This document shows, one piece after another, positions 19,194 through 38,555 of a stretch of 64,000 nt of DNA. The position numbers and the translations under genes were made by a program. Position 1 is the stretch's first letter, and every line of letters starts with the position of its first letter. Where the stretch lies: assembly GCF_020176715.1 (NCBI RefSeq), contig NZ_JAIVMF010000011.1, forward strand, positions 62,001-126,000, in the 5' to 3' direction. The notes under the pieces were generated by a model. It made no database searches. It was not told the origin of the DNA and saw only the letters and a list, made by a program, of their open reading frames with translations. Source of the stretch: Stappia stellulata. Its GTDB lineage: Bacteria; Pseudomonadota; Alphaproteobacteria; Rhizobiales; Stappiaceae.

Positions 19194-19263
19194 TCTGAGT
19201 AGGTTGGCGCGAATGGTTGGACCTGCGGCCGAGAGACGTGGCCGCGCAGCGGGATTTTCGCCA

Positions 19264-20370
19264 ATGAGAATCAGGGCAATCGAGACCTTCGCCACGCAGT
19301 TCGTCTGCTTTGTGCGGGTCACGGCGGAAAACGGCACGCAGGGCTGGGGGCAGGTCGCCCCCTATTGCGCCGATATCACGGCGGAGGTGCTGCATCGCCA
19401 GGTCGCTCCTCATGCCCTTGGCCAGGATGCCTTCGACATCGCGCATCTGATGGAGATCATCCCCGAGCGGGAGCACAAGTTTCCGGGCGCCTATGTCAGC
19501 CGCGCCATGGGCGGCCTCGACACCGCATTGTTCGACCTGCGCGGACGGATCGAGGGCAAGCCGGTGTGCGAACTCCTTGGCGGCACGCCGGGCCGTGTGC
19601 GTGCCTATGGCTCGTCGATGAAACGAGACATCACGCCGAAGGACGAGGCGGAGCGGCTGAAACGCCTGCAGGACGCCCACGGCTTTACCGCCTTCAAGTT
19701 CCGCATCGGCGCCGAATGCGGCCGCGACCAGGACGAATGGCCGGGGCGCACCGAGGAAATCGTGCCGACGATGCGCGCGGCCTTTCCCGACGACACCGCA
19801 CTTCTGGTCGACGCCAACTCCTGCTACTCGCCGCAGAAGGCAATCGAAGTCGGCCGGTTCCTTCAGGACAACGGCATCTCGCACTATGAGGAGCCCTGCC
19901 CCTATTGGCACTACGACCAGACCAAACAGGTGACGGACGCGCTCGACATCGACGTCACCGGCGGCGAGCAGGATTGCTCGCTCGTCGACTGGGCGCGGAT
20001 GATCGACCAGCGCGTGGTCGACGTGATCCAGCCGGATATCTGCTATCTCGGCGGCATGGTCCGCACCCTGCAGGTGGCACGGATGGCGGAGGCGGCGGGC
20101 CTGCCCTGCACGCCGCATGCGGCCAATCTGTCGATGATCACGCTTTTCACCATGCACCTGCTGCGCGCAATTCCCAACGCCGGCAAATACCTCGAGTTTT
20201 CCATCGAGGGCCGGGACTACTACCCCTGGCAGGAGGACCTGTTCGTCTCCTCGCCCTACGCCATTGACGACGGGCATGCCACGGTGACCGACGCCCCCGG
20301 CTGGGGTGTGGAGGTCAATCCCGAATGGCTTGCCCGGTCGACCTACAAGATCAGCACCCAGGATTTGTGA
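19264..20370 (+). CDS. Mandelate racemase/muconate lactonizing (enolase superfamily) enzyme
   Basis: 368 residues from the ATG at 19264, where homology starts (MRIRAIETF). An upstream in-frame ATG at 19213 is possible. The N-terminal capping domain is followed by a TIM barrel with metal ligands in VDANSCYS (first Asp), YEEPCPYW (Glu) and VTGGEQD (Glu). A FKFRIG strand occupies the usual KxK/KxH position as K-F-R. HAANLSM may supply the second-half histidine. The family abstracts a proton alpha to a carboxylate (dehydratases, racemases, epimerases). Genes around it handle amines, so the substrate may be an amino or hydroxy acid formed downstream; it cannot be named. Confidence 0.82.
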   Translation: MRIRAIETFATQFVCFVRVTAENGTQGWGQVAPYCADITAEVLHRQVAPHALGQDAFDIAHLMEIIPEREHKFPGAYVSRAMGGLDTALFDLRGRIEGKPVCELLGGTPGRVRAYGSSMKRDITPKDEAERLKRLQDAHGFTAFKFRIGAECGRDQDEWPGRTEEIVPTMRAAFPDDTALLVDANSCYSPQKAIEVGRFLQDNGISHYEEPCPYWHYDQTKQVTDALDIDVTGGEQDCSLVDWARMIDQRVVDVIQPDICYLGGMVRTLQVARMAEAAGLPCTPHAANLSMITLFTMHLLRAIPNAGKYLEFSIEGRDYYPWQEDLFVSSPYAIDDGHATVTDAPGWGVEVNPEWLARSTYKISTQDL

Positions 20371-20372
20371 CC

Positions 20373-21881
20373 ATGACCACTTCCACCGAAACTTCCGGGA
20401 CGGATCTCGTGACCGAGGCGCTGCGCACGGGCACGCTTGCCGGATTGCCGGAGGGCCATTTCATCAACGGCGGATTTGTCCGCCCCGCGCACAACCGGCG
20501 CATGGAAAGCTTCGATCCGGGTCGGGGCGAGGCCTTTGCCGAATTTGCCGCCGGCACGGCGGAGGATGTCGACGACGCGGTGGCAAGCGCCCGCCATGCC
20601 TTCGAAACCGTCTGGCGCGACACGCTCCCCGTCGAGCGCGGCCGCATCCTGATGCGCGCCTCGCGGCTGATCCAGGACAATCTCGAAAGGCTCGCCGTTG
20701 CCGAAACGCTCGACAGCGGCAAGCCGATCGCGGAAGCGCGCGGCGACGTGCGCGGCGCGGCCCGCACCTTCGAGTATTACGCCGGCGCCTGCGACAAGCT
20801 GGAGGGCGAGAGCTTCCCGCTCGGCCCCGATTATCTCGCCTATTCCATCCATGAGCCGGTCGGCGTTACCGCCCATATCATCCCCTGGAACTTCCCGATC
20901 TCCACGGCGGCGCGTGGTTTCGCCCCTGCCCTTGCCGCCGGCTGCGCGATCGTCGCCAAGCCGGCGGAACAGACGCCCTTCACCGCCCTGATGCTCGCCG
21001 AGATCCTGTCGCAGGCAGGTCTTCCGGACGGCGTGTGCAATGTCGTTACCGGAACCGGCGCCGAGGCCGGCGCCCCGCTGACGCGCCATCCGGGCATCGA
21101 CCACATCACCTTCACCGGCTCCGTCGCCACGGGCCGCCAGGTGATGAAGGCCGCGGCCGACGACATCACCCGCGTGGTGCTGGAACTCGGCGGCAAGTCT
21201 CCGGTGGTGGTTTTGAAGGATTGCGACCTTGACCAGGCAATCGCCGGCGTTCTCGGCGCGATCTACGAGAACGCCGGGCAGATCTGCTCGGCCGGATCGC
21301 GGCTGATCATCGAGCGGCCGATCCAGGACGAATTCCTCGCCGCCCTCGCCGCGCGCGCCAAGGCGCTGTCGCTCGGCCATGGGTTGCGGGGACCCGATGT
21401 CGGGCCGGTGAACTCCGCGGCACAGCTCGACAAGATCGCCGGGTTCGTCGCCCGGGCCCGCCAGCAGGGCGCGGAGATCCTGGCCGGCGGCAAGGCAACG
21501 ACCGATCCGGAAACCGGCAAGGGCTGGTTCTACGAGCCGACCATCGTCGCCAGGCTCAGCCCGCGCGACGAGATTGTGCAGGAGGAAGTGTTCGGGCCCG
21601 TGCTTGCAGTGCAAAGCGCGGAGGATGCCGATCACGCCCTGGCGCTGGCCAACGACAGCCAGTACGGCCTGGTCGCCGGCGTCTATACCAGCGACCTTGG
21701 CACCGCCCATCGGCTCGCCCGCCGCATCGACGCAGGACAGGTGTTCATCAACGAGTATTTCGCCGGCGGCATCGAGGTGCCCTTCGGCGGCAACAAGAAA
21801 TCCGGCTTCGGTCGCGAAAAGGGCCTGGAGGGCCTGAAGAGCTACTGCAAGACCAAGAGCGTCGCCGCGCGCATCACCTGA
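20373..21881 (+). CDS. NAD(P)-dependent aldehyde dehydrogenase (PuuC/betaine-aldehyde-like)
   Basis: 502 residues, two bases after the upstream stop, so co-transcribed. Typical ALDH motifs: IIPWNFPIS, the glycine motif FTGSVATGRQV, catalytic-glutamate block VLELGGKSPVVVL, catalytic cysteine in NAGQICSAGSRL, and EEVFGPVLAVQ. The C-terminal PFGGNKKSGFGREKGLEGL is shared by PuuC and BetB. It would oxidise the aldehyde produced by the PuuB-like or GMC enzymes to the acid. Confidence 0.9.
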   Translation: MTTSTETSGTDLVTEALRTGTLAGLPEGHFINGGFVRPAHNRRMESFDPGRGEAFAEFAAGTAEDVDDAVASARHAFETVWRDTLPVERGRILMRASRLIQDNLERLAVAETLDSGKPIAEARGDVRGAARTFEYYAGACDKLEGESFPLGPDYLAYSIHEPVGVTAHIIPWNFPISTAARGFAPALAAGCAIVAKPAEQTPFTALMLAEILSQAGLPDGVCNVVTGTGAEAGAPLTRHPGIDHITFTGSVATGRQVMKAAADDITRVVLELGGKSPVVVLKDCDLDQAIAGVLGAIYENAGQICSAGSRLIIERPIQDEFLAALAARAKALSLGHGLRGPDVGPVNSAAQLDKIAGFVARARQQGAEILAGGKATTDPETGKGWFYEPTIVARLSPRDEIVQEEVFGPVLAVQSAEDADHALALANDSQYGLVAGVYTSDLGTAHRLARRIDAGQVFINEYFAGGIEVPFGGNKKSGFGREKGLEGLKSYCKTKSVAARIT

Positions 21882-21884
21882 CCG

Positions 21885-21927
21885 CGCCCCTCGCGGAAAG
21901 GCCTGAGGGGCGACGGCCTGCCCGTCG
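21885..21927 (+). terminator. Tandem hairpins after the aldehyde dehydrogenase gene
   Basis: CGCCCCTC / GAGGGGCG (8-bp stem, 12-base loop, 21885-21912) followed directly by CGACGG-cctgc-CCGTCG (21911-21927). They begin right after the stop codon. No T-run follows, so termination strength is uncertain. Confidence 0.5.
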
Positions 21928-21951
21928 TCCCGCAAACGGAAGCCTGTCCGA

Positions 21952-21967
21952 TTGGGTCACTTTTGAC
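21952..21967 (+). promoter_or_regulatory. Putative response-regulator site before the sensor binding-protein gene
   Basis: TTGGGTCACTTTTGAC, containing the dyad GTCA-N4-TGAC. Fourteen of its 16 bases match the inverted copy at 26742-26757 upstream of the second binding-protein gene. A TTGACA hexamer overlaps its 3' end, but no good -10 follows at 17 bases. Confidence 0.5.
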
Positions 21968-22191
21968 ACATCGCGCGGGCGCGCGCGGTCTTTGCCATTG
22001 AACACGACCGGCGCATCGACCAAAACTCGGGGAACGCCGCATCCCGCGGCAGGAAACGGATCGGGCTTGCGCCCGAAAGCGCAAGCCGCGATGCCGACGG
22101 GAAACCCGAGATCGACATGCCGCGTTCCATTGCCCCTCTTCACGCAGACCCAAAAGCGCCCCCGACGGCGGGGCGGGCAGACGGGACGCGC

Positions 22192-23463
22192 ATGAGCGCG
22201 TTGCAGCGGCTCCTTGTCGCCGTTCTCGGCCTGGCGCTTGCCCTGCTGCCGGTCCTGCCGGCCCACGCGGCGAACGAGCTGCGCATTCTCACCTCGATGC
22301 CACCGGCGCTGTTCCAGCCGTACAAGGAGGCGTTCGAGGCCGCCAACCCGGGCACCTATGTGCTGGTTCTGAACAAGCACACGGGCGCTGCGCTGGAAGA
22401 GGTGGTGCGCGGCAATCCCCGGCATTTCGACATCTTCTGGGCGAGCGCGCCGGAGGCCTTCTCGATCCTGGCGAGCCACGACGCCTTCGCCTCGGCACGG
22501 ACGCAGGAAACCGTCTGTCCGGCCACCGGCGGCCGCGGCTACCGGCCCTTCGCCCTGTCCTCGATCGGCTGGACCCGGCGCGCGGACAGCACGCTGTTCA
22601 TGCCGGGCGACTGGAACGACCTGCTGCTTCCCGCCTATCGCGAGCGCATCGGCATGGCGCGGCCCTCGCGCTCGGGCACCATGCACATGCTGGTCGAGCG
22701 TTTCCTGCAGGTGCGCGGCTGGAACGAAGGCTGGAGCTATTTCCTCGCCCTGTCGGAGAACCTCTCGACGCTGACGTCGCGCAGTTTCGGCGTGATCGAC
22801 GGGGTGCGCAGCAACCGCTTCGACATCGGCATCACCATCGACTTTCTCGCGGTGAGCGCGCAGCCCGACCTGATTTTCCGCTATGGCAAGCCGGTGATGA
22901 TCTTCCCGGCGCAGATCGGAATTCTCGCAAGCGGCCAGGCCGGCGATCTCGCCTGTGCCTTTGTCGCACACCTGTTGTCGGACGAGGGCCAGCGCGTGCT
23001 GCTCCATCCCGCGATCGGACGCGTCCCGATCGCGCGCACGATCCACGAGGCGGACCCCGACAATGTGCCCCGGGAAATCCGCGAGGCGATGCGCCTGCCC
23101 TGGCTCGCCTATGACGCGGAACTGGCCCGCGACCGCTACTGGGCGGTCAACGGCTTGTTCGACATCTTCATCTCCGACGTTCTGCCCGAGCGCCGGGCGC
23201 TGTGGGACCGGTATCGCAGGCTGGAAGCGCAGGGCGCGTCGATCGGACTCGCCCTCATTCACGACATGCTCACCACCCTGCCGGTGCCCGAAACCCTCGC
23301 CACTTCCAGCGAATTGAACGACCTGCCGCTGCGCATCACCAATCTGACAGCGCAGACGGAGCGCCAGAAAGCGGCGCTGGATGCCTGGCGCGAGGCGGCG
23401 CTCAACCAGCTCGCCGCGATCGACGCGGCGCTCGTTGCCCTCGAGGACGGGGCAAGCCCATGA
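22192..23463 (+). CDS. Periplasmic binding protein with regulatory role (PgtC-like sensor subunit)
   Basis: 423 residues from the ATG at 22192, which begins a signal peptide (ALQRLLVAVLGLALALLP ending AHAA). The mature part, LRILTSMPPALFQPYKEAFEAANP then DIFWASAPEAFSIL, is a type 2 solute-binding fold. It is clearly paralogous to the protein at 26863 (TSFP..., DLFWASAPDAFEVL). The C-terminus adds a coiled segment (LRITNLTAQTERQKAALDAWREAALNQLAAIDAALVAL). It overlaps the kinase gene by four bases (ATGA), and kinase and regulator follow. That order matches Salmonella phosphoglycerate-transport regulation, in which PgtC is the periplasmic component acting with kinase PgtB. Inference: it presents ligand to the kinase rather than to the transporter. 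Confidence 0.78.
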   Translation: MSALQRLLVAVLGLALALLPVLPAHAANELRILTSMPPALFQPYKEAFEAANPGTYVLVLNKHTGAALEEVVRGNPRHFDIFWASAPEAFSILASHDAFASARTQETVCPATGGRGYRPFALSSIGWTRRADSTLFMPGDWNDLLLPAYRERIGMARPSRSGTMHMLVERFLQVRGWNEGWSYFLALSENLSTLTSRSFGVIDGVRSNRFDIGITIDFLAVSAQPDLIFRYGKPVMIFPAQIGILASGQAGDLACAFVAHLLSDEGQRVLLHPAIGRVPIARTIHEADPDNVPREIREAMRLPWLAYDAELARDRYWAVNGLFDIFISDVLPERRALWDRYRRLEAQGASIGLALIHDMLTTLPVPETLATSSELNDLPLRITNLTAQTERQKAALDAWREAALNQLAAIDAALVALEDGASP

Positions 23464-25448
23464 CGACGACCCGGCGCGGCTATTGGGCGGGCGGCATCTG
23501 GCGGCGCCTGTTCGTCGTCATCGGAGCGACCGTCATGGTCCTGTGGTTCATGCTGGCGCTGTCGATCCTGCTGTTCGCGCGCGTGCAGGAGGACTATTCG
23601 GACCTCGCCGCCTCGCATGTGCCACGCCTGGCGCTGTCGAGCGAGCTTGCGGAATATTCCGCCCGTCTGGCCGGCCTCGCCACGGCGATCCTGGGGCGAC
23701 AGACCGAGGATCAGGACCTTCTCGCCGAGATCAAGCGGGTCTCCGTGCAACTCTCCTCGGCGCTGCAGGACCCGGCCTGGACCGATCCCCTGCCCGCCAA
23801 TGCGCCGGACGTACGCCGGATCGCCGAGACCCCCGGCGATGTCGAGGGCGAACTTCTGACGCTGCTGGCGCTTTTCGAGAACCGCCGTGCGCTTTCCGAT
23901 GCGCTGGCCGACCGGATCGAGCGGCTGCGCTGGCTGAATGTCGACATTCAGGACGAGGTCGACCCGATCCTCAATGACTATACGTTCAACATCGAGGCGA
24001 TGATGCGGGCCATCGGCGCCGCCGATGAGCGCTCCGTCCGTGAGGATCTGGTGCGCCGCATCGGCGACGAACGCACCCTGCGCAACACCATCGCCCAGAT
24101 CGGCGGCGATGCGGCGACCGCCGTGACCTTGATCATTCAAGGCAGCGTGGCGGCCGACCCGCTGCAACTTGAGCGCTTTTCCGATCTGACCAACGACATG
24201 CTTGTGCGCGTCGCGGAGACGGTCGACACCATTCCGTCGAAGCCGGAGTTCCTCACCCTGCGCCAGTCGGTTGCCGGCCTGCGTGAGGTCGCGCAAGGCG
24301 AAAAGGGCGTCTTCGCCCTGCGCAAGGACTGGCTGACGCAGGAACTGCGGGTCTATGCGCGCATCCAGTCGCTTCAGGACGGGATCACCGCGCTGCAGGC
24401 CAACTTGACAGAGGTCGCGGAAAGCGAGAAGCGCAGCGTTCTGGCCTCCGTCGACGGCGCGGCACAGCGCCTGCGCACGACGATGGCCTGGCTGATCGGC
24501 GCCACCATCCTCGTCGGGATAGCCGGTGTCGCCGCGCTGTTCGGCATCGTGCAGAAGGGCATCATCGCCCCCTTGCAGCAACTGACCGATGCGATGATGG
24601 GGATCGCCGAGGGCGAACGCACCGGCGCCCTGCCGCCGGTCACCGGCGACGAGATCGGCCGCATGGCGCAGGCCGTCGGCGCCTTCCAGTCCTCGATCCG
24701 CGCGCGTGACGAGGCCATCGACGACCTGCACCGCACCCAGGCGGAGCTGGTGCAGGCCGGCAAGATGGCAGCGCTTGGCAATCTCTCCGCCGGCATCAGC
24801 CACGAGCTGAACCAGCCGCTTGCCGCGATGAAATACCGCCTGCATCTGCTGCGCAGCGCAAGGGACACGCATGACGCCTCCCAGGTGGACCGCCAGATCG
24901 GGCGGATCTCCGCGCTGGCGGAGCGGATGGAGGCGATCATCGCCCATTTGCGCCGTTTCGCTCGGCGCGCCGATCAGGAGCGGGTGCCGCTGTCGCTCGG
25001 CGAGGCCATCGACAACGCGATCGCATTGATGCGCGGCAAGATCGACGCGCCGGGCATCGCGCTCAAGGTGCAGGACGCCAGCCGCGCCGCGTCCGTGATC
25101 GGCGACCCGATCCTGGTCGAACAGGTGCTGGTCAACCTGCTGTCGAATGCGGTCGATGCCATCGAGGATGCCGGGGGAACCGGCGAGATCGAGATCGCCG
25201 GCGCCCGGGCCGGCCCGGACTTCGTGCTGACCATTTCCGACACCGGCATCGGTCTCGGCGATCTCGCGCCGGAAGTGGCGATCGATCCTTTCGTGTCCAC
25301 CAAGTCGGCCGGCCGGGGCATGGGGCTCGGGCTGTCGATTTCCTACAATATCGCACGCGATCTCAATGGCGACTTCCGCCTGGAACCGGGCGACAAGGGC
25401 GGCGCGCGCGCCGTCCTGCAACTTCCCAGCGGGGACAGCGATGACTGA
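23460..25448 (+). CDS. Membrane sensor histidine kinase (PgtB-like)
   Basis: 662 residues. The first membrane helix (about residues 16-38) and the second (about 342-365, TTMAWLIGATILVGIAGVAALFGIV) bracket a 300-residue, largely helical periplasmic domain. A HAMP linker follows, then the H-box AGISHELNQPLAAMKYRL with phospho-acceptor His448. The ATPase boxes are N (VLVNLLSNAVDAIED), G1 (ISDTGIGL) and G2 (GRGMGLGLSISYNI). The NQPL kinase subtype is shared with DctB and PgtB. Its start overlaps the binding-protein gene by four bases and its end overlaps the regulator by eight, so all three are translated together. Confidence 0.9.
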   Translation: MTTTRRGYWAGGIWRRLFVVIGATVMVLWFMLALSILLFARVQEDYSDLAASHVPRLALSSELAEYSARLAGLATAILGRQTEDQDLLAEIKRVSVQLSSALQDPAWTDPLPANAPDVRRIAETPGDVEGELLTLLALFENRRALSDALADRIERLRWLNVDIQDEVDPILNDYTFNIEAMMRAIGAADERSVREDLVRRIGDERTLRNTIAQIGGDAATAVTLIIQGSVAADPLQLERFSDLTNDMLVRVAETVDTIPSKPEFLTLRQSVAGLREVAQGEKGVFALRKDWLTQELRVYARIQSLQDGITALQANLTEVAESEKRSVLASVDGAAQRLRTTMAWLIGATILVGIAGVAALFGIVQKGIIAPLQQLTDAMMGIAEGERTGALPPVTGDEIGRMAQAVGAFQSSIRARDEAIDDLHRTQAELVQAGKMAALGNLSAGISHELNQPLAAMKYRLHLLRSARDTHDASQVDRQIGRISALAERMEAIIAHLRRFARRADQERVPLSLGEAIDNAIALMRGKIDAPGIALKVQDASRAASVIGDPILVEQVLVNLLSNAVDAIEDAGGTGEIEIAGARAGPDFVLTISDTGIGLGDLAPEVAIDPFVSTKSAGRGMGLGLSISYNIARDLNGDFRLEPGDKGGARAVLQLPSGDSDD

Positions 25449-26724
25449 GAAAACCCGGGTCTATGTCGTCGACGACGATGGCGATCTGCGCGAGGCGCTC
25501 CTGGAGGTGCTGGCGAGCGAAGGCATTCCGGCGGACGGCTTCGCCACCGGCCGCGACATGTTGCGCCAGCTCGACCCGGAATGGGAGGGCGTCATCCTGT
25601 CCGACATCCGCATGCCGGGGCTCTCCGGCCTGGAGGTGATGCAGGAAGCCCGGCAACTGGCGCCCGACGTGCCCTTCATCCTGATCACCGCCCATGGCGA
25701 TATCCAGATGGCGGTAAAGGCGGTGCGGGACGGCGCCTTCGATTTCATCGAGAAGCCGGCGCCGCCGGAACATCTGCTCGCGGTCGTGGCCCGCGCGCTG
25801 ACCACCCGCAAGCTGCAGCTCGAGAACGCCCGGCTGCGGCGGCGCGTGGCGCGCGGGGCGAACCTCGGCGCGCGGTTTCTCGGCCGCTCCGCGGTGATCC
25901 GCACCTGCCGGCGCGAGATCATTTCCGTCGCGCCGCTTGACGTCGACGTGCTGCTGCACGGCGAGACCGGCACCGGCAAGGAACTGGCCGCGCGCTGCAT
26001 CCACGACCTGTCCGGGGCGGAAGGCGACTTCGTTTCGCTCAATTGCGGGAGCCTGAGCGAAGCCACCTTCGACGACGTGATGTTCGCGGAATCGGAGACC
26101 CGCCCCGGCGCCATCCCGCGCGCACGCGGTGGCACCCTGTTTCTCGACAATGTCGCGTCGCTGTCGGAAACCGTGCAGTTGCGGCTGCTCGATGTCATGG
26201 ACCGACGCAGTGGCGAAATCCCGTTTCGCGTGATCGGCGCCAACCCGCGCTCCCTGTCGGACGCGCATGGCGCGGGCGAACTGCGCGACGACCTCTACTA
26301 TCGCCTCAACCTTGCCGAGATCGAGCTGCCACCGCTCAGGGAGCGGGAAAACGACGTCTTCCTGCTGCTCGACCATTTCATCAACGAATCCGTCGCCCGC
26401 CACGAACGGCGCTATCCGACGATGACCGCCGACGACTTGCGCCCGTTCAAGGCCTACCACTGGCCCGGGAACTTGCGCGAGTTGCGCAATGTGGCGGAAA
26501 AGCTCGTGATCGGGCTGAAGGTCCGCTTTCAAAAACCCAGCGAACAGGTGCCGGACGGTCTCGACTACGACAGCGCCATGCAGGACTTCGAGGCGTCGCT
26601 GCTGCGCGCGGCCCTGCTCAAGGCCGGCGGGCGCAAGGGCGAGGCCGCGGAGCTGCTGAAGATCCCGCGCAAGCGCCTCTATCTGCGGCTGAAGGCCACC
26701 GGCCTGCTCCAGGATGGGTCATAA
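25441..26724 (+). CDS. NtrC-family response regulator lacking GAFTGA (PgtA-like)
   Basis: 427 residues. The receiver domain (1-120) has acidic DDD near residue 10, phospho-Asp55 (LSDIRMPG) and EKPAPPEH. The AAA+ domain has an intact Walker A GETGTGKE (174-181) and the RDDLYYRLNL sensor region. However, the segment between DDVMFAESETRPGAIPRAR and GGTLFLDN is about a dozen residues shorter than usual and contains no GAFTGA sigma54 contact loop. Walker B ends D236-N237 instead of Asp-Glu. A Fis-type helix-turn-helix closes the protein (GRKGEAAELLKIPRKRLYLRLKATGL). These changes argue against sigma54 activation and ATP turnover and suggest action at a sigma70 promoter, as reported for Rhodobacter capsulatus NtrC. 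It presumably controls the binding protein and ABC genes that follow. Confidence 0.88.
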   Translation: MTEKTRVYVVDDDGDLREALLEVLASEGIPADGFATGRDMLRQLDPEWEGVILSDIRMPGLSGLEVMQEARQLAPDVPFILITAHGDIQMAVKAVRDGAFDFIEKPAPPEHLLAVVARALTTRKLQLENARLRRRVARGANLGARFLGRSAVIRTCRREIISVAPLDVDVLLHGETGTGKELAARCIHDLSGAEGDFVSLNCGSLSEATFDDVMFAESETRPGAIPRARGGTLFLDNVASLSETVQLRLLDVMDRRSGEIPFRVIGANPRSLSDAHGAGELRDDLYYRLNLAEIELPPLRERENDVFLLLDHFINESVARHERRYPTMTADDLRPFKAYHWPGNLRELRNVAEKLVIGLKVRFQKPSEQVPDGLDYDSAMQDFEASLLRAALLKAGGRKGEAAELLKIPRKRLYLRLKATGLLQDGS

Positions 26725-26757
26725 CTGCCCCAAAAACGCGTGTCGATAGTGACCCAA
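26715..26757. promoter_or_regulatory. Paired TGGGTCA operator upstream of the second binding-protein gene
   Basis: TGGGTCA at 26715-26721 faces TGACCCA at 26750-26756, 35 bases apart. The second half is part of GTCGATAGTGACCCAA (26742-26757), the inverted near-copy of 21952-21967. The proximal site would fall near -46 to -31 of a promoter with its -10 at 26776, a classical class II activator position. Confidence 0.55.
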
Positions 26758-26775
26758 CATCGAAAAATTTCTCTT

Positions 26776-26781
26776 TATACT
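26776..26781 (+). promoter_or_regulatory. Probable sigma70 -10 hexamer for the ABC operon
   Basis: TATACT in an AT-rich stretch, about 19 bases downstream of the TTGGGTCACT element and about 80 bases before the start at 26863. No good -35 accompanies it, as expected for an activator-dependent promoter. Confidence 0.45.
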
Positions 26782-26862
26782 TCAATGATTTGACTAGATT
26801 TCCGAGACATGGATAGCCTTTCACTGCGCGACATCAGACCGCGCAAGTTTGGGAGGACTACC

Positions 26863-28185
26863 ATGAAGACGTTTTTGCGCGGCAGCGTTGCCGCAACGGT
26901 TCTGCTCGCCAGTTCCGCCTTCGCGGCGGAGCCGGTGGTTATCGTCACGTCGTTTCCCGACACAATGACGACGGTCATCGAGAAGGCCTTCGAGGAAGCG
27001 CACCCGGAATACGATCTGGAAGTGCTCAACAAGAGCACCTCCTCCGGCGTCAAATACATTCAGGAAATTGCCGGTTCCAACACCGCCGACCTGTTCTGGG
27101 CATCGGCACCCGACGCCTTCGAGGTCCTGAAGTCGGGCGATCACCTCGCCAAGGTCGGGATCAAGGTCGACGGCATTCCCGACATGATCGGCTCCTATCC
27201 GATGAACGATCCGGACGGGGCCTATTACGGCTTTGCCGCCTCGGGTTACGGCATCATGTGGAACGAGCGCTATCTCGCCGCCAACGAGCTTGAGCCGGCG
27301 CGCGACTGGTCGGACCTGAAGAAGCCGGAATACCACGGCCATGTCGGCATGTCCGCGCCGTCGCGCTCGGGCACCACGCATCTGACCGTGGAAACCCTGA
27401 TCCAGGGCGAAGGCTGGGAGAAGGCCTGGGCCGACTGGAAATGGATTGCGGGCAACTTCGCCTCCGTGACCGAGCGCAGCTTCGGCGTTCCGGACGGCGT
27501 CAACACCGGCAACTTCGGCCTCGGCATCGTGATCGACTTCTTCGGCTTCTCGTCGAAGGCCTCCGGCTTCCCGGTCGACTTCGCCTATCCGTCGGTCACC
27601 GCGCTGGTTCCGGCCAACATCGGCGTCGTCAGCAATGCGCCGAACGAGGAAGGCGCCAAGACCTTCATCAAGTACCTGCTGTCGCCGGCCGGCCAGAAGA
27701 CCCTGTTCAACCCGGCGATCATGCGTCTTCCGGTCAATCCGGCGAGCTATGCCGATGCCCCCGAGGGCCTGCCCAATCCGTTCGGGGAGGGGGCGATCGC
27801 CGCGTCGGTCAAGTTCGACGTCGACACGTCCGGCAAGCGCTACTACGTGGTCAGCTCGCTGTTCGACGTGATGATCACCTACCGTCTCGACGACCTGCGC
27901 GCTGCCGTGCGGGCCGTGCAGATGGCGGAGGCCAAGCATGCGGACGGGTCGAACGCGGAAGCCAAGGAGCTGATCGCCGAAGCCCGCAAGCTGATCGAGA
28001 AGACCCCGATCACCGAAGCGCAGAGCCTTGACCCCAGCCTGAACGGCGCCTTCACCAAGCGCCGCAAGAAAGCCACCGACACCGTCGACCGGCGCCAGGC
28101 CGAGATCGAACAGGAGTGGGACGCACAGGTGACCGCGAACTACGCGCTCGCCAAGCAGCTGGCGGACAAAGCCGCCGCAATGTAA
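26863..28185 (+). CDS. Periplasmic substrate-binding protein of AfuA-like ABC importer
   Basis: 440 residues. Strong GGGAGGA ribosome site six bases before the ATG; signal peptide KTFLRGSVAATVLLASSAFA ending FAA. The mature start EPVVIVTSFPDTMTTVIEKAFEEAHPEYDLEVL and later VSNAPNEEGAKTFIKYLLSPAGQKTLF are typical of the Fe(III)/AfuA/phosphonate cluster of binding proteins. A C-terminal helical tail follows (KAAD-type repeats, DRRQAEIEQEWDAQVTANYALAKQLADKAAAM). It precedes a two-domain permease and an ATPase, so it is the transport binding protein. Ferric-iron tyrosine ligands are not evident, and close linkage to a PgtCBA-like module favours an organic phosphate or sugar-phosphate ligand (inference). 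Confidence 0.85.
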   Translation: MKTFLRGSVAATVLLASSAFAAEPVVIVTSFPDTMTTVIEKAFEEAHPEYDLEVLNKSTSSGVKYIQEIAGSNTADLFWASAPDAFEVLKSGDHLAKVGIKVDGIPDMIGSYPMNDPDGAYYGFAASGYGIMWNERYLAANELEPARDWSDLKKPEYHGHVGMSAPSRSGTTHLTVETLIQGEGWEKAWADWKWIAGNFASVTERSFGVPDGVNTGNFGLGIVIDFFGFSSKASGFPVDFAYPSVTALVPANIGVVSNAPNEEGAKTFIKYLLSPAGQKTLFNPAIMRLPVNPASYADAPEGLPNPFGEGAIAASVKFDVDTSGKRYYVVSSLFDVMITYRLDDLRAAVRAVQMAEAKHADGSNAEAKELIAEARKLIEKTPITEAQSLDPSLNGAFTKRRKKATDTVDRRQAEIEQEWDAQVTANYALAKQLADKAAAM

Positions 28186-28218
28186 CGGCGGGCCCGCGCC
28201 CCCGGCGCGCGCCCCCCA

Positions 28219-28252
28219 GGCCCCGGACCCGCTCCCTTGCGGCTCCGGGGCC
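28219..28252 (+). terminator. Intercistronic hairpin after the binding-protein gene
   Basis: GGCCCCGGA / TCCGGGGCC outer stem with an inner CCGC-tccctt-GCGG stem, one C-C mismatch between them. It lies in the 96-base gap before the permease and has no T-tract. The likely effect is to stabilise the upstream mRNA or attenuate read-through so that binding protein exceeds membrane subunits. Confidence 0.6.
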
Positions 28253-28281
28253 GCCCATCCCCGAAAACGCCGGAAATCGAA

Positions 28282-30033
28282 ATGACATCCTCATCCCGCC
28301 CTGCGGCAGGAGGGCGGTCGCTTGCCGACCGCTTGCCAGATGCCCTCTTTCCCAAACTCAGTGGCCCGGCCATCGTTGGCCTGTTCATCGCCATCTTCCT
28401 TGGCGGCTTCCTGATCTTTCCCGTCCTGCAAGTGATCTATGTCGCGTTCCAGGATCCGGGCAGCGGTGCGCTGACACTGCGCAATTTCGGCGATTTCTTT
28501 GCGACAAGCCTGTTTCGCGAGAGCTTCGTCAACTCCTTCTACGTTTCGGCGATGTCGGTGGTCTTCGCGACCCTGATCGCCCTGCCGCTGGCCTATATCA
28601 CCACCCGCTTCAACTTCGGCGGCGCGATGATCGTCCAGAGCCTCGGATTCATTCCGCTGATCATGCCGCCCTTCGTCGGCGCGGTGGCGATGCAGCTGAT
28701 CTTCGGCCGCAACGGCACGGTCAACCTGCTGCTGCGCGAGCACTTCGGCTTCACCATCCCGTTCATGGACGGGCTGAACGGCGTGATCCTGGTGCAGAGC
28801 ATCCACTATTTCCCCTTCATCCTGATCAACCTGTCGACCTCGCTGCGCAACATTGACCGCTCGATGGAAGAAGCCGCCCAGAACCTCGGCTCGCACGGCA
28901 TGCGGCTGTTCCGCAAGATCGTGTTCCCGCTGGCGATGCCCGGCTATATCGCCGGCGCGGTGCTGGTCTTCATCAAGGTCTTCGATGATCTCGGGACCCC
29001 GCTTCTGCTCAACGTCAACAACATGCTGGCGCCGCAGGCCTATCTGCGCATCACCTCCGTCGGCATCAGCGATCCGATGGGCTATGTGATCTCGGTCATC
29101 CTGGTCGCCTTCTCGGTGCTGTCGCTGTGGGCCTCCTTCCTGGTGATGCGGGGCAAGGACTACGCCACCGTGCAAAAGGGCGGCGGCGGACTTGCCCGGC
29201 GCGATCTCAAGACGCGCGAGAAGGTGCTGGCCTATGGCGCCGTCGCGCTGATCCTGCTGCTGGTGCTGTCGCCGCACATCGGGCTCCTGCTCCTGTCGCT
29301 CGGCACCGTGTGGTCCTATGCGCCGCTTCCCGACGGCTACACGCTCCAGAACTACGTCACCATGTGGGAGAACTCGCAGCAGTATATTGCCAACACGCTG
29401 CTGTACGCCGGTCTTGCCGCCCTCGGCGACGTGATCATCGGCACGGCCATCGCCTATATCGTGCTGCGCACCGGCATCTGGGGCCGCAAGGGGCTCGACT
29501 ATCTGGCAACGGCAGCACTGGCCGTTCCCGGCGTCGTCCTCGGCATCGGCTACCTGCGCTCGTTCCAGGGCATCGACGTGCCCTTCGTCGGCGAGCCGCT
29601 GGCAAGCTGGTGGGTGATCATCGCCATCGCCCTGATGATCCGTCGCCTGCCCTACGCGCTTCGGGCCTGCATGGCCGCACTGCAACAGGTCAGCCATGCC
29701 CTGGAAGAAGCAGCGGAAAACCTCGGCGCCTCGAAGACGCGCACCATCCGGCGGATCGTCATCCCGCTGATGATGGGCGGCATCCTCGCCGGCTTCGTCA
29801 CCAGCTTCGCGACCGCGGCCGTCGAGCTGTCGGCGACGATCATGCTGGTGTCCTCGGATGCGGACTCCCCGCTTGCCTACGGCATCTACCTGTTCATGCA
29901 GACGCCGTCCGGTCGCGGCGCGGGTGCGGCCCTTGGCATCGTCGCGGTGGTGATTGTCGGCCTTGGAACCCTGCTTTCGCAGATCATCATCGATCGCGAC
30001 AAGAAACTCAAAACCCAAAGTGGCGACCACTGA
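28282..30033 (+). CDS. Two-domain ABC transporter permease (AfuB/FbpB-like)
   Basis: 583 residues with about twelve membrane helices: two fused copies of the permease domain. Each copy has its own EAA loop (RSMEEAAQNLGSHGMRLFRKIVFPLAMPG and HALEEAAENLGASKTRTIRRIVIPLMMGG). This architecture is typical of AfuB/FbpB/PhnU-type importers for iron, sugar phosphates or aminoethylphosphonate. The ATG at 28282 begins the domain; upstream in-frame sequence is the GC-rich hairpin. Co-transcribed with the ATPase 22 bases downstream. Confidence 0.92.
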   Translation: MTSSSRPAAGGRSLADRLPDALFPKLSGPAIVGLFIAIFLGGFLIFPVLQVIYVAFQDPGSGALTLRNFGDFFATSLFRESFVNSFYVSAMSVVFATLIALPLAYITTRFNFGGAMIVQSLGFIPLIMPPFVGAVAMQLIFGRNGTVNLLLREHFGFTIPFMDGLNGVILVQSIHYFPFILINLSTSLRNIDRSMEEAAQNLGSHGMRLFRKIVFPLAMPGYIAGAVLVFIKVFDDLGTPLLLNVNNMLAPQAYLRITSVGISDPMGYVISVILVAFSVLSLWASFLVMRGKDYATVQKGGGGLARRDLKTREKVLAYGAVALILLLVLSPHIGLLLLSLGTVWSYAPLPDGYTLQNYVTMWENSQQYIANTLLYAGLAALGDVIIGTAIAYIVLRTGIWGRKGLDYLATAALAVPGVVLGIGYLRSFQGIDVPFVGEPLASWWVIIAIALMIRRLPYALRACMAALQQVSHALEEAAENLGASKTRTIRRIVIPLMMGGILAGFVTSFATAAVELSATIMLVSSDADSPLAYGIYLFMQTPSGRGAGAALGIVAVVIVGLGTLLSQIIIDRDKKLKTQSGDH

Positions 30034-30055
30034 CGGGCGCCGGGAGGACATGACT

Positions 30056-31117
30056 ATGACAACGGAAATGGTTGGAATCGAGATCGAGGACCTTCACCTC
30101 GCCTTCGGGAAGACAAAGGTGCTGACGGGCGTGAACCTCACGATCGAGCCCGGCGAGTTCTTCGCCTTCCTCGGCCCGTCGGGGTCGGGCAAGTCGACGC
30201 TGCTGCGCTCAATCGCGGGCTTCGGTCCGCAACCGGAGGGGCATATCCGCATCGGCGGCAAGGATGTGGTCGACCTTCCGCCCTGGAAGCGCAATGTCGG
30301 CATGGTGTTCCAGTCCTATGCGCTCTGGCCGCATCTGTCGGTGCGCGAGAACGTCGCCTTCGGCCTGAAGGAGCGCAAGATGCCCTCCTCCGAGATCGGC
30401 CCGCGCGTTGCGGCCGCACTCGATCTGGTCGGCCTGAAGCATCTGGCGGAGCGCATGCCCAACCAGCTTTCGGGCGGCCAGCAGCAGCGCATCGCGCTGG
30501 CCCGCACCGTGGTGGTGGAACCCAAGGTTCTGCTTCTGGACGAGCCGCTGTCCAACCTCGACGCCTCGCTGCGCGTGCAGATGCGCCGCGAGCTGCTCGC
30601 GCTGCAGCGCAAGTTGGGTCTGACGACGATCTTCGTCACCCATGACCAGGAGGAGGCCAACACCACCTCCGACCGTATGGCGGTGCTCGACGGCGGCGTC
30701 ATCCAGCAGATCGGGACGCCCCAGACGCTCTACGACACGCCGGAAAACCTCTTCGTCGCGAGCTTCCTCGGCACCGCCAACATTCTGGAAGGCAAGGTCG
30801 AGCGCGACGGCGGCGATATCCGTTTCGTGGCCGGGACCGGCGACAAGCTGCTCCTGTCGAGCGAGGCGGACGGGACCGGCGCCATCGTGCTCCGGCCGCA
30901 GAACATCGCGATCAGCGAAAAGCCTGACGCGGACACGCTGTCGGGACGGATCCTGCACCGCGAATTCCTCGGCAGCCAGATCCGCTACATCGTCCAGGCG
31001 GCGGGCACGGAAATGGTCGTCGATCAGGGTCACAAGGCCGGCGAGGCAGGCTACCTGCCCGAAACCGACGTGCACCTGAAGGTCAACACCCAAAGCGCCG
31101 TCTGGATCCCGCAGTAG
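30056..31117 (+). CDS. ABC transporter ATP-binding protein (AfuC/FbpC-like)
   Basis: 353 residues. The start at 30056 is preferred to 30050 because GGGAGGA sits seven bases upstream. Walker A GPSGSGKST (40-48), Q-loop VFQSYALWPHLSVRENVAFGL, signature LSGGQQQRIALAR, Walker [15 protein letters not shown]-loop VTHDQEEANTTSD. A C-terminal TOBE domain follows (VLRPQNIAIS, REFLGSQIRYIVQ). It completes the importer with the two preceding genes. Confidence 0.92.
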   Translation: MTTEMVGIEIEDLHLAFGKTKVLTGVNLTIEPGEFFAFLGPSGSGKSTLLRSIAGFGPQPEGHIRIGGKDVVDLPPWKRNVGMVFQSYALWPHLSVRENVAFGLKERKMPSSEIGPRVAAALDLVGLKHLAERMPNQLSGGQQQRIALARTVVVEPKVLLLDEPLSNLDASLRVQMRRELLALQRKLGLTTIFVTHDQEEANTTSDRMAVLDGGVIQQIGTPQTLYDTPENLFVASFLGTANILEGKVERDGGDIRFVAGTGDKLLLSSEADGTGAIVLRPQNIAISEKPDADTLSGRILHREFLGSQIRYIVQAAGTEMVVDQGHKAGEAGYLPETDVHLKVNTQSAVWIPQ

Positions 31118-31130
31118 GCGGCGCAAACGG

Positions 31131-31173
31131 CAGGGCTGCGCGGCGGACCGAGATCCCCCGCTGCGCAGCCCTG
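31131..31173. terminator. Hairpin between convergent ABC ATPase and oxidoreductase genes
   Basis: CAGGGCTGCGC at 31131-31141 pairs perfectly with GCGCAGCCCTG at 31163-31173, with further GC pairing inside. It lies 13 bases past the ATPase stop and 20 bases past the stop of the opposing gene, so it can serve both strands. No T-run. Confidence 0.6.
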
Positions 31174-31192
31174 ATCGGGCAGCCCGACACCA

Positions 31193-32149
31193 CTAGGACG
31201 CCAGCATCGTCTCCACCAGCTTCTGCACGGCAAGTGCTTCGGCGGGCGTGGCGAGGCGGTTGGGCTTGCCGTCGATCAGCAGCAGGAGATCGTCGAGCTG
31301 GGCCTTGAGGCTGACGGCGCGCGGATCGGCGGGGCGCTTGCGCAACTCCACGAAGTCTCCGCCATCGGAGCGGGCATCGACGTAGAAATCCGTGATCCGC
31401 CGGCTGGTCTTCGTGCCCTTGACGGTGAACTCCTGACGGTCGGGCTGCGCGCCGCCGACACTTGCCAGAATGGAAACCGGCAGGCCGTCCGCGTTTTCCA
31501 GGCGGGCGAGAAGCTGGGTCTCGCAAAGCGCCGGGTCCTTGGGATAGCTCGGCTTGGCCCAGACGACCTCGAGCGGCCCCAGAACACGGCTCGTGAAAAA
31601 CAGGAAATGCGAGAGCACCTCGCGCGTCATCCCGCCCTCGGCGCGGAACCGCAGCCAGTCCGCCGCCACCTGCCAGGCGCGCGGCCAGGCGGGATAGGTC
31701 AGCACGACATCGACACCGACGAGATCGCCCATCTCGCCTGCCTTCGCCGCATGGGACACATCGGTCAGCGCCGCACCGGCGGCCTGGGTGAAATTGACGG
31801 CGGCCGGAACGCCGGCAGCCTCGAGGCGGGCAACCAGATCCTCGCTCTCCGCGACATCGACGCCGAGCGGCTTTTCCAGGAACACCGCCTTGCCGGCACT
31901 GGCTGCGGCCAGTGCGTAGGTCTTGCGCGGCTCCGGCGGGCAGGCGAGATAGACGAGATCCGCCGCCGCGATGGCCGCATCCGGGCCGTCGGTCACTTTT
32001 GCCGAGGGCGCCAGCTTCGCCGCTGCCGCGCAGGCCTCGGCGCTCGGATCCCAGAGCGCAACGACATCGTAGCCTTCGTGGCGACCCATGTGCTCCAGCA
32101 TGCGCTGCCCCATGATGCCAAGGCCGATGACTGCTGTTTTCACGCCCAT
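31193..32149 (-). CDS. Gfo/Idh/MocA family NAD(P)-dependent oxidoreductase
   Basis: 318 residues from the ATG at 32149 (GAGG upstream; the frame continues further but without homology). Rossmann start VKTAVIGLGIMGQRMLEHM, then the family motif AGKAVFLEKPLGVDVAESEDLV with the EKP lysine, and a C-terminal alpha/beta domain (GGMTREVLSHFLFFTSRVLGPLEVVWAKPSYP). Members oxidise or reduce sugars, inositols or similar polyols. It stands alone between convergent and divergent genes, so the substrate is unassigned. Confidence 0.85.
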   Translation of the reverse strand: MGVKTAVIGLGIMGQRMLEHMGRHEGYDVVALWDPSAEACAAAAKLAPSAKVTDGPDAAIAAADLVYLACPPEPRKTYALAAASAGKAVFLEKPLGVDVAESEDLVARLEAAGVPAAVNFTQAAGAALTDVSHAAKAGEMGDLVGVDVVLTYPAWPRAWQVAADWLRFRAEGGMTREVLSHFLFFTSRVLGPLEVVWAKPSYPKDPALCETQLLARLENADGLPVSILASVGGAQPDRQEFTVKGTKTSRRITDFYVDARSDGGDFVELRKRPADPRAVSLKAQLDDLLLLIDGKPNRLATPAEALAVQKLVETMLAS

Positions 32150-32371
32150 GCGTTTGTCCTCTTTCGGGTTTTTGCTTTTGGTATGATGATTTCCGGCCCC
32201 TGTTCTGCCCCGCCACGACGCCGACGTCCAGTGCATCCGGTTGAAAACGCCTCGCGCACCGCAGCGGCACGGGCAAGGCGGCACTTGCGCTTTACTGTGA
32301 CGGTCGGCGCGCTACTCTGAGGTCGGCCCGACAGCGAACGGGCGCTCCCGCCAGCAAGACATCAGGACCAC

Positions 32372-34342
32372 ATGAGCGAGACCCGCCCCTCCCCCGACTG
32401 GACGCCGACGCCTGCGTTCATCGAACAAAGCAACATGACCGCCTTTCAAAGGTTTCTTGCTCGCACCCACGGCCTGCAGCTTGAGGACTATCACGCGCTC
32501 TGGGCATGGTCGGTCCGCGAACCGGGCGCTTTCTGGGAAGCGATCATGGCGTTTTCGCAGGTCGAGAGCCCGACGCCCTGGCGCGCAGCGCTGGAGGACG
32601 CGCGCATGCCGGGCGCGGTGTGGTTTCCAGGTGCCACGCTGAACTACACGGCGCATGCGATGCGCCATGTCCGGCCCGGTCGCACGGCCATCCGCCACGA
32701 GGCGGAGGACGGCACGCAGACGGAGCTCGACTGGGAAACGCTCCGGGACCGGACGGCGGCGGTCGCAGCAGGGCTTGCAGCCCTTGGCGTGGCGCGCGGC
32801 GACCGGGTCGTCGGCTATCTGCCCAACACGCCGGAGACGATCGTCGCCTTTCTGGCAACGGCCAGCCTTGGCGCCGTCTGGTCGCTGTGCGCGCCCGACA
32901 TGGGTGCTGCCACCGTGCTGGAGCGCTTCCGCCAGATCGAGCCGAAAGCGATTGTCACCGCGTCCGGCTACGCTTTCGGCGGCAAATGGCGCGACCGCAG
33001 CGCCGAAGTCTCGGAGCTTCTCGCGGGACTTCCGACACTTGCCGCCTGGATCTCGATGGATACGGCCGAAAATGTCGACGGCGGGTCGCTCGCGCGCACC
33101 GATTGGGCCGCGCTTTGTGCATCCGGGACCCGCCTCGCGCTCGAGATGCTGCCCTTCGACCATCCCTTGTGGATCGTCTATTCCTCCGGCACCACCGGCA
33201 CGCCCAAGGCCATCGTGCATAGCCACGGCGGGGTGATGCTGGAGCATCTGAAGCTCCTCGGCCTTCACTGCGACATCGGCGCGGACGACGTCTTCGCCTG
33301 GTACAGTTCGACCGGCTGGATCATGTGGAACGTGCAGGTCGGCGGCCTGCTGACCGGCGCGACCGTCGCCATTGCGGAAGGCAGCCCCGGCCATCCCGAC
33401 AACGGCCGGCTCTGGCGCTTCATCGAGCGCGCGGGCGTCACGGTCTTCGGCGCGGGCGCGGCCTGGTACATCGCCTGCATGAAGGCCGGCATCGTGCCGC
33501 GCGCGGAAGCCGATCTTTCGGGCTTGAAGATGCTGGGCTCGACCGGCTCGCCGCTGCCGCCGGAGGCCTACCGGTGGATCCAGGACACCGTCCGGCGCGA
33601 CATCTGGATCGCGCCGATTGCCGGCGGAACGGACCTTGCCGGCGTCTTTCTCGCCGGCGCGCCGACGCTGCCGATGCGGGTCGGCGAAATGCAGTGCCGT
33701 GCGCTTGGCGCCGGCGTCTACGCCTTCGACGAGGCCGGAAATCCTGTGGAGGACGAGGTCGGCGAGCTGGTCTGCACCACGCCGATGCCCTCCATGCCGC
33801 TGTTCTTCTGGGGCGACACGGACGGGCAGCGCCTGCGGGAGAGCTATTTCGACACCTATCCCGGCGTCTGGCGGCACGGCGACTGGGTGCGCATCACGCC
33901 CGACGGCGGCGGCATCATCTATGGCCGCTCGGATGCGACGATCAACCGGCACGGCATCCGCATGGGCACCGCCGACATCTACCGCGTGGTCGAGGACATG
34001 GCGGAGATCGCCGACAGTCTGGTGGTCGATCTGGAGTATCTCGGCAAGCCCTCCTGCATGATCCTCTTCGTCAAGCTTGCGCCCGGCGCGTCGCTGGATG
34101 CGGAGCTGGAACATGCCATTGTCGCGGCCCTGAAACGCCGGGTGTCGCCGCATCACGTGCCGAATGAAATCGTCGCGGCGCCGGACATTCCCTATACGCT
34201 GACGGGGAAGAAGCTGGAGGTGCCGGTCAAGAAGCGTCTGCTCGGCCATCCGATGGAGGCTGTTGTGACGCGCGACGCCATGGCCAATCCCGAGTGCCTC
34301 GCCTGGTACGACCGCTTCGCGGACGATTTCGGCACCGGTTAG
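32372..34342 (+). CDS. acsA: Acetoacetyl-CoA synthetase
   Basis: 656 residues, the length of acetoacetate-CoA ligases. Acyl-adenylate motifs: [18 protein letters not shown] (P-loop), [19 protein letters not shown], and [21 protein letters not shown] near the C-terminus. Catalytic lysine is expected in [18 protein letters not shown]. The N-terminal block [13 protein letters not shown] and NYTAHAM (ACAS_N domain) separate it from generic acyl-CoA ligases and fit AacS. It activates acetoacetate with ATP and CoA in the cytoplasm, feeding ketone-body or PHB-related carbon into central metabolism. It converges with the next gene, overlapping by four bases. Confidence 0.9.
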
Positions 34343-37300: not shown

Positions 37301-38284
37301 TTACTTGCCGTGGATCATGTCGTCCGGAATGCTCGCGCCGGCGTTCTCGATGAACCATTCGGCGGCACCCGGGTGCCACTTCAGGACCTTGTTCTTGTCC
37401 CAGTTCTCGGGAAGCGTCGAACGGGCGGCCTTATGGATGCCGACCATGCGCTCGTTGTCGGACATCACGACATCGACCGCCGCCTTCACGAAGGAGGCCG
37501 GCAGGTCGCAGTTGGCGACGGCGAAGTTCCACATGGAGACCGAGCGAGCCGGCGCCTTCAGCGTGGAATAGGTGCTTTCCGCGATCTGGAACTCGGAGAC
37601 CGGGAAGGCCTCCATGATCTTGGCCTGCTCTTCTTCCGTGAACTCGATGATGTTGATGTCGGTCTGGACTTCCAGCTGGCTGACAGCGGGAACCGGGACG
37701 CCGGCGGCAAAGGCGATCACGTCGAGCAGACCGTCCTGAAGCTGACCGCCGAGATCCGACCAGCCGCCGTTGCGGCGCTCGAAGTTGACGCCCAGCGCTT
37801 CCATCATGCGCGGGAAGTAAGTGTCGGAGGTCGACCCGGCCGGGCCGAAACCGATCTTGGCGCCGTCCGGAATGTCGGCGATCGACTTGATGCCGGACGA
37901 GGCCAGCGCGGTCACCGAGAACGGCGTCTGATACATCGGGAACATCGCGCAGGCGTTGTCCATCTTGAGACCCGGCGCGATCGGGTTGGTGCCGGCCAGC
38001 GATTCAGCCGCCGGACCCATCGTGGTCATGCCGAACTGCGCGTCGCCGGTGTGCACCAGCGCCATGTTCTGCATCGGGCCGCCGGTGACTTCGCCACCGC
38101 CGGAAATGCCGAGCTGATCGGCGACAAGGTTCGCCCAGCCGGAGCCATAGGCGAAATAGGTGCCGCCCTGCGATGCGGTGCCGACCGTGAAGCTTTCCGG
38201 CCAGCCGGTGCGGTCCTGAGCGACGGCGACCGAGGTGGACATCGCGACGGCAACCAGCGTGCCTGTAAGGGCTTTGAGTTTCAT
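37301..38284 (-). CDS. TAXI family TRAP transporter solute-binding protein
   Basis: 327 residues from the ATG at 38284 with GGAGGA upstream; longer in-frame extensions lack a signal. Signal peptide KLKALTGTLVAVAMSTSVAVAQ, then FTVGTASQGGTYFAYGSGWANLVADQLGI, the diagnostic TAXI start (T-A-x-x-G-G-T-Y). A NM ALVHTGDAQFGMTTMGPAAESLAG ligand-site block and GFGPAGSTSDTYFPRMMEALG follow. It delivers an unidentified, probably carboxylate, ligand to the fused permease. The adjacent DctBD-like pair likely controls it. Confidence 0.9.
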   Translation of the reverse strand: MKLKALTGTLVAVAMSTSVAVAQDRTGWPESFTVGTASQGGTYFAYGSGWANLVADQLGISGGGEVTGGPMQNMALVHTGDAQFGMTTMGPAAESLAGTNPIAPGLKMDNACAMFPMYQTPFSVTALASSGIKSIADIPDGAKIGFGPAGSTSDTYFPRMMEALGVNFERRNGGWSDLGGQLQDGLLDVIAFAAGVPVPAVSQLEVQTDINIIEFTEEEQAKIMEAFPVSEFQIAESTYSTLKAPARSVSMWNFAVANCDLPASFVKAAVDVVMSDNERMVGIHKAARSTLPENWDKNKVLKWHPGAAEWFIENAGASIPDDMIHGK

Positions 38285-38354
38285 GGGTTCCTCCAGATTT
38301 CCGCCGGACAGCCAGGAAACAAGGTCCCCGCTCCCTCCCGTCCGGCATTCTTTC

Positions 38355-38374
38355 GGGTGGACAGAGATCCACCC
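38355..38374. promoter_or_regulatory. Inverted repeat GGGTGGA-N6-TCCACCC upstream of the TAXI gene
   Basis: Perfect seven-base arms at 38355-38361 and 38368-38374, about 71-90 bases before the binding-protein start. It may be an operator or a leader hairpin. It is not followed by T residues on the minus strand. Confidence 0.4.
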
Positions 38375-38510
38375 TACAGGCCTCTCGGGGCCCGCACCGG
38401 TCAAAAAAGGAGCGACCTCGCATAAAAACAAGAGCGCTTGCGCAGTTCATCTCCGGTGATTTTGCAATTCCGGTAAAAATGGGTCGATCAGGTAACATGA
38501 CAGGCCAAAC

Positions 38511-38532: not shown

Positions 38533-38555
38533 GCAACGTTCAAGCGTCGCCGCCC

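Follow-up and report, generated by a model that had tools for sequence, protein, structure and literature searches.

The window, a 64,000-nt stretch of a 4.55 Mb Stappia stellulata genome, carries at 22192-31117 six intact, co-directional open reading frames (all on the + strand), on which Pfam and NCBIfam agree. The first, SBP1 (22192-23463), is a sensor-class (PgtC-like) binding protein with a signal peptide and a C-terminal extension. It is followed by HK (23460-25448), a PgtB-like histidine kinase with HAMP, an HELNQPL box, and two TM-like stretches (13-44 and 340-370), and by RR (25441-26724), a PgtA-like response regulator without the GAFTGA loop and with DN instead of DE as its Walker B. 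SBP1 and HK overlap by ATGA, and HK and RR by 8 bases. A gap of 138 bases separates RR from SBP2 (26863-28185), a binding protein of the transport class that shares the C-terminal extension of SBP1. SBP1 and SBP2 are paralogues (133 of 420 positions, 32% identity, E 2e-59). The last two frames encode a fused ABC permease with two BPD_transp_1 domains (28282-30033) and an ABC ATPase with TOBE_2 (30050-31117). An RNA hairpin at 28219-28252 (+), between SBP2 and the permease, is more stable than expected (z -3.26, 0 of 200 shuffles as stable) and is possibly an element for differential expression, perhaps favoring an excess of receptor. The dehydratase and aldehyde dehydrogenase genes upstream (19261-21881) were considered as further parts. 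They are kept in two of the loci fetched for comparison, L055 and L056, but a search found no match in the Paracoccus locus L057, and they were therefore not counted.

The order of binding protein, kinase, and regulator, together with the short overlaps, is that of Salmonella pgtC-pgtB-pgtA, as the original prediction had stated, and the HELNQPL box in the translation agrees with its NQPL-type kinase. PgtB (NF047794, E 3e-51) and PgtA (NF047793, E 1e-82, residues 3-423 of 428) are the best-matching curated models for the kinase and regulator, though both miss their cut-offs by a wide margin (174 bits versus 1000 and 278 versus 650, respectively). In the window's own genome, the highest score against the PgtB model belongs to another kinase (window 39977-40747, 184.9 bits), which matches over the kinase core only; HK ranks second at 173.9 bits, but over model positions 142-651. 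Like the Salmonella system, the module has a regulator without GAFTGA, and two similar palindromes occur in the Salmonella pgtP-pgtC intergenic region. The Salmonella proteins control a single MFS antiporter. The transporter next to the sensor genes here is instead an ABC importer that brings a paralogous receptor of its own, SBP2, which shares 31% identity with PgtC; this is in line with the claim that PgtP had been replaced. No pgt genes were seen in the stretches of E. coli CFT073 that were inspected, which were chosen by guess.

The importer resembles AfuABC in its fused permease, single ATPase, and SBP_bac_6-class receptor, and the binding proteins share their class and a phosphate-holding SGT with AfuA and P5PA. 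The module differs in its C-terminal extension, its own sensor cassette, and the absence of AfuA His205, and AfuA (E 2e-9) and P5PA (E 2e-11) are distant by sequence. The best curated models for SBP2 and the ATPase are the putative 2-aminoethylphosphonate (AEP) models PhnS2 and PhnT2. All AEP models score below cut-off: PhnS2 gives 91 of 393 bits for SBP2, PhnU2 166 of 593 for the permease, and PhnT2 356 of 458 for the ATPase. The description "AfuABC-like" thus holds for the wider FbpA/PhnS2/AfuA class but no more closely, as the binding proteins fall far below the AEP models and the closest solved structures are distant. The module works like Pgt joined to an FbpABC-class importer, yet by the tests run it is a member of neither PgtBAC nor AfuABC. 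Two named importers were considered and rejected as identities: GpxB (glycerol-1-phosphate), described as a PhnT-family transporter unlike this one, and AepXVW/AepSTU (AEP), of which AepXVW is described as a separate system.

The combination of sensor cassette and ABC importer is a recurrent family, not a one-off. The six-gene order is contiguous in 18 other fetched loci (L035, L036, L041, L046, L049, L050, L051, L055, L056, L057, L086, L097, L142, L144, L146, L147, L148, and L153), not all of them independent: L055 and L056 are the window's closest kin, and L049-L051 come from one genus. L056, from Stappia stellulata DSM 5886, is the nearest named relative among those scanned, its six proteins being 91-98% identical. 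In Azospirillum (L143), two opposite-strand genes lie between the regulator and SBP2. Relatives of SBP1 (E <= 1e-30) occur in 20 of 249 genomes of the order; for SBP2 (E <= 1e-50), the figures are 15 of 385 in the class and 12 of 398 in the phylum, and SBP2 also matched 56 plasmid records. A receptor profile (E <= 1e-40) matched 22 of 398 phylum genomes, some of these matches being shorter receptors. Importers without an adjacent sensor also occur, as do sensor cassettes with another transporter. In L037 (4182-14794) and L038 (4858-15466), receptor, kinase, and regulator are followed by TctC and TctA-type (TctCBA-type) genes, and the fetched stretch contains no ABC genes; the Tct genes are preceded by two palindromes and a sigma-54 promoter.

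The original prediction assigned one receptor to sensing and its paralogue to transport, and a comparison of binding proteins favors this division. In a tree of 75 rows, the 40 transport-labeled rows and one unlabeled row form a single clade (97/100). In a reduced tree, one change suffices to separate the 24 sensor rows from the 40 transport rows, and the transport clade has a support of 100 in a quick tree; grouping the sensor rows as one clade was not rejected (p-AU 0.34). This role test omits five long-branch rows, including Salmonella PgtC, and its transport rows do not include two short receptors that had received this label only by proximity to a distant permease. Given the single role change on the tree, the split between sensing and transport is old, not a recent duplication in Stappia, and so are the paired receptors.

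In Ruminiclostridium cellulolyticum, the CuaDSR two-component system is reported to have its own binding protein and the CuaABC importer another (PMC10384115). The likeness is that a two-component system governing an ABC importer has a binding protein to itself, besides the one that serves the importer; the Cua system differs in being Gram-positive, in its AraC-type regulator, and in its substrate, cellobiose, and we do not claim relatedness. The members of CuaD/CuaA-type pairs are also reported to differ in range (PMC10384115), which would suit a reading in which SBP1 is not reserved for sensing and serves the permease as well, or even chiefly, so that two receptors widen the range of one importer. 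That SBP1 and SBP2 both keep the C-terminal extension and the SGT motif would suit it too. We consider it highly improbable, given the single role change on the tree and the occurrence of sensor-class receptors with TctCBA in L037 and L038 and with PgtP in Salmonella.

Two further arrangements of these receptors were observed. In L101 (5144-9293), a transport-clade receptor comes right after a kinase-like ORF, with no importer found there, a possible re-recruitment to sensing. In L152 (7923-12780), L102 (9067-12411), and L096 (6738-11644), PgtC-like receptors adjoin TonB-dependent receptor genes (annotated as such in L152, identified by eye in L096 and L102), and no ABC importer genes were found at these places.

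Across 20 aligned receptors, the residues invariant in both classes include SGT (S161-G162-T163 of SBP1) and RS.GV. The SGT aligns with that of AfuA and P5PA, in which it is reported to hold the phosphate (PMC4546632, PMC8427247). The pocket residues common to SBP1 and SBP2 are compatible with a common ligand and are not proof of one. Both classes also carry the C-terminal extension of ~100 residues, which the tree's shorter relatives, receptors of about 345-365 aa, do not have. Structure prediction for SBP2, using 7 sequences, gave a poor model (mean pLDDT 49.5) with confidence only in the C-terminal extension, which was modeled as helices.

Neighboring genes bear on the nature of the ligand. 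Importer loci were defined by a permease at least 55% identical together with an ATPase, and in 14 of 46 (L035, L084, L086, L088, L142, L143, L144, L145, L147, L148, L149, L150, L151, and L153) the one or two same-strand genes directly 3' of the ATPase encode a HAD and/or histidine phosphatase. The same two phosphatase models found one match elsewhere in those loci. Nine of the 14 loci supplied the sequences for these models; the matches in L084, L088, L149, L150, and L151 are independent. Four HADs were scanned, of which two lie above the TIGR01449 phosphoglycolate phosphatase cut-off and two just under it; for the four histidine phosphatases, no model was exceeded at cut-off. The window locus and, overall, 32 of the 46 have neither phosphatase after the ATPase; in one of the 32 (L085), a calcineurin-type phosphoesterase gene comes next. 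The window branch of the SBP2 tree comprises the window, L056, L057, and L146, all without phosphatase. It belongs to a starred 7-row clade whose other members, L084, L142, and L151, do have one, as do L035 and L144, which join this clade in a weaker 9-row group (84/40). The window's nearest relatives outside the Stappia/P. zhejiangensis group carry such a gene.

Other neighbors include a pyruvate kinase downstream of the Pseudochrobactrum importer, a PEP-mutase-family gene in L086, and Na/Pi cotransporter genes beside the sensor cassettes of L037 and L038. Salmonella PgtP is reported to have 2- and 3-phosphoglycerate and PEP as substrates (PMC10715179), and PgtC is described as a 3PG sensor (PMC11077982). 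Together, the phosphatase neighbors and the PgtP substrates point to a phosphorylated C2/C3 acid as the likely ligand. In P. denitrificans, the acid phosphatase gene aphA (AphA) lies 5' of the sensor operon. The earlier proposal of a phosphorylated C3 compound or sugar fares well in its first part. Other neighbors, a PNPOx-type gene in P. denitrificans and a four-carbon acid sugar kinase and a dehydrogenase downstream in L046, suggest that the ligand may differ between family members. Hexose phosphate is disfavored: AfuA contacts the sugar through His205-Asp206, and the His is absent from the aligned position; Asp206 is aligned in one HMMER alignment and shifted by one residue in the other.

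The same architecture might instead serve another ligand, namely 2-aminoethylphosphonate, hexose phosphate, pyridoxal phosphate, or a four-carbon sugar acid. The PhnS2 and PhnT2 matches speak for this, as do AfuA and P5PA being among the solved relatives of the binding proteins, the PNPOx-type gene of P. denitrificans, and the four-carbon acid sugar kinase of L046. The SBP2 and ATPase scores are nevertheless far below the AEP cut-offs, and Stappia stellulata is reported to have a separate, characterized AEP importer, AepXVW (PMC8316502). Phosphoglycolate-type HADs and pyruvate kinase are at odds with AEP or PLP, and the absence of His205, seen with two alignments one residue apart, weakens the case for a hexose phosphate. 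We regard a ligand from this group as doubtful, though far from negligible, and favor a phosphorylated C2/C3 acid.

By its domains, RR is the NtrC-type regulator of the original prediction, which did not remark that the sigma-54-contacting GAFTGA loop is missing; the Walker B glutamate is missing as well. Among loop-less kin, Walker B is DN in Stappia, DR in P. zhejiangensis, and DE in P. denitrificans and P. pantotrophus. The 46 importer loci comprise 18 with a local regulator that has the loop (15 GAFTGA and three degenerate, GAFTSA in L036 and GAFTNA in L039 and L041), 7 with a local regulator that lacks it, and 21 with no local regulator. L044, L045, and L047 were placed in the last group because their nearby NtrC-type regulator adjoins, by eye, DctP/DctM-like TRAP genes. 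Upstream regions of the transport operons were scored against the -24/-12 consensus. All 18 loop-bearing loci have a match of 10-12 of 12, a score reached by no more than 7 of 200 shuffles; the matches of L049-L051, from one genus, lack the -12 GC itself. All seven loop-less loci (window, L055, L056, L057, L142, L146, and L151) reach 7-8 of 12, with at least 127 of 200 shuffles as good, and the window's best match, 7 of 12, is at chance level. One of the 21 loci without a local regulator, L145, scores 12 of 12 and has a GAFTGA regulator 11 kb upstream. The Tct loci L037 and L038, in which the loop is present, score 11 and 12 of 12, and Salmonella pgt, in which it is absent, scores 9 of 12, at chance.

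In a regulator tree built with the loop columns left in, the seven loop-less rows form a single clade (99/97) with L035 and L144, where loop and promoter are both kept, as its sister (93/82); the bootstrap had not settled. The association of loop and promoter (Fisher p 2e-6) is descriptive only, since loop loss is one event on the tree with Salmonella as the only second case, and the p value overstates independence. Loop losses here would number at most two. A tree count of 4 loop changes was discarded, as it included the window's second regulator, RR2, whose GAFAGA the search pattern did not recognize, together with L143_22645, an unrelated regulator. The region that holds this second NtrC-type regulator (37301-43380) also has a second kinase (dCache); its neighbors are an iron alcohol dehydrogenase and a TAXI-type TRAP receptor.

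Operator-like palindromes lie before both operons. Upstream of the SBP1/sensor operon, TGGGTCA-N4-TGACACA (TGGGTCACTTTTGACACA, 21953-21970) matches at 13 of 14 positions, a score reached by 0 of 2000 shuffles. Upstream of SBP2 are TGGGTCATAACTGCCCCA (26715-26732, 13 of 14) and a second site, CGTGTCGATAGTGACCCA (26739-26756, 11 of 14), and 0 of 2000 shuffles of this region match them. A -10-like box, TATACT (26776-26781, +), lies 19 bp past the second site and reads TATAAT in L055 and L056. Two such sites, 23-24 bases apart, precede SBP2 in 7 of 7 loop-less loci, the second being kept in all as GTGTCGAWANTGACCCA. The loop-bearing L035 and L144 have one 12/14 site, further upstream. L036, L039, and L043 score 12-13 of 14, nine other loop-bearing loci only 10, and four have none, so the site is not general. 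In the Salmonella pgtP-pgtC intergenic region, the palindromes score 12 and 11 of 14, and 0 of 2000 shuffles had both. With at most one mismatch, the 4.55 Mb genome holds two sites only, those at 21953 and 26715; with at most two it holds four, as does the reversed control, and the extra two lie inside a glycerol-kinase-like ORF and at 38513 (12/14), by the window's second NtrC-type regulator.

The paired sites and the -10-like box would fit a class-II activator at a sigma-70 promoter. In the Paracoccus loci the box is weak, at 4 of 6; no -35 matching the window's box was found, and scanning 21860-32400 for the sigma-70 consensus turned up no promoter. Loop-less NtrC proteins of Rhodobacter capsulatus and Caulobacter, which like RR belong to the NtrC family and lack GAFTGA, are reported to act at sigma-70 promoters (PMC10274813). 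The present case concerns a different regulator family and adds the Walker B change and a promoter co-change that can be read across sister loci. Conceivably, RR still needs sigma-54 through an unusual contact, or represses at the operator-like sites: rpoN is present in the window's genome, the two sites overlap or adjoin the presumed promoter, and the sigma-70 consensus scan was negative. Against this stand a -24/-12 match no better than chance in all seven loop-less loci and the published action of loop-less NtrC at sigma-70 promoters (PMC10274813). We judge this alternative improbable, repression being its possible part, and prefer activation at a sigma-70 promoter.

Our best overall explanation, which we consider probable, is that the locus both senses and takes up a small carboxylic acid that bears a phosphate: 2-phosphoglycolate, 2- or 3-phosphoglycerate, or PEP. 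By analogy with PgtC, SBP1 would bind the compound in the periplasm and act on the kinase, which would phosphorylate the regulator. The regulator would then bind the paired TGGGTCA-N4-TGACCCA sites and raise transcription of SBP2, permease, and ATPase, and probably also of its own operon. SBP2 would hand a compound of the same kind to the ABC importer, which would take it up with energy from ATP. The phosphatase that relatives make from the same operon would free the phosphate inside; in Stappia, a gene elsewhere would have to do so. Because the loop and the -24/-12 promoter are both gone, we infer that the regulator of this lineage no longer works with sigma-54, its sites being placed as for a class-II activator of the housekeeping polymerase.

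A fuller proposal is plausible but more tentative. These would be high-affinity ABC importers for acids of the phosphoglycolate/phosphoglycerate type, with a dedicated sensing receptor, and the Stappia/Paracoccus lineage would have converted an NtrC-type sigma-54 activator to sigma-70. The loop would have been lost first and the Walker B glutamate later (on the Stappia/P. zhejiangensis branch), with the enhancer sites moved beside the -10 box and the rest unchanged. Paired receptors (CuaD/CuaA) and Pgt-type sensing (Salmonella) have been described before. Literature searches of titles and abstract openings found no description of Pgt sensing combined with a paired-receptor ABC importer, of the phosphatase association, or of the sigma switch, and within that scope these appear to be new. 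If the proposal is right, alphaproteobacteria would have a widespread uptake route for small phosphorylated acids, products of photorespiration and glycolysis, through importers currently annotated as iron or generic ABC transporters. One operon that has a sigma-54 regulator and promoter, and a sister clade that lacks both, would also make the switch from enhancer-dependent to housekeeping transcription testable with matched parts.
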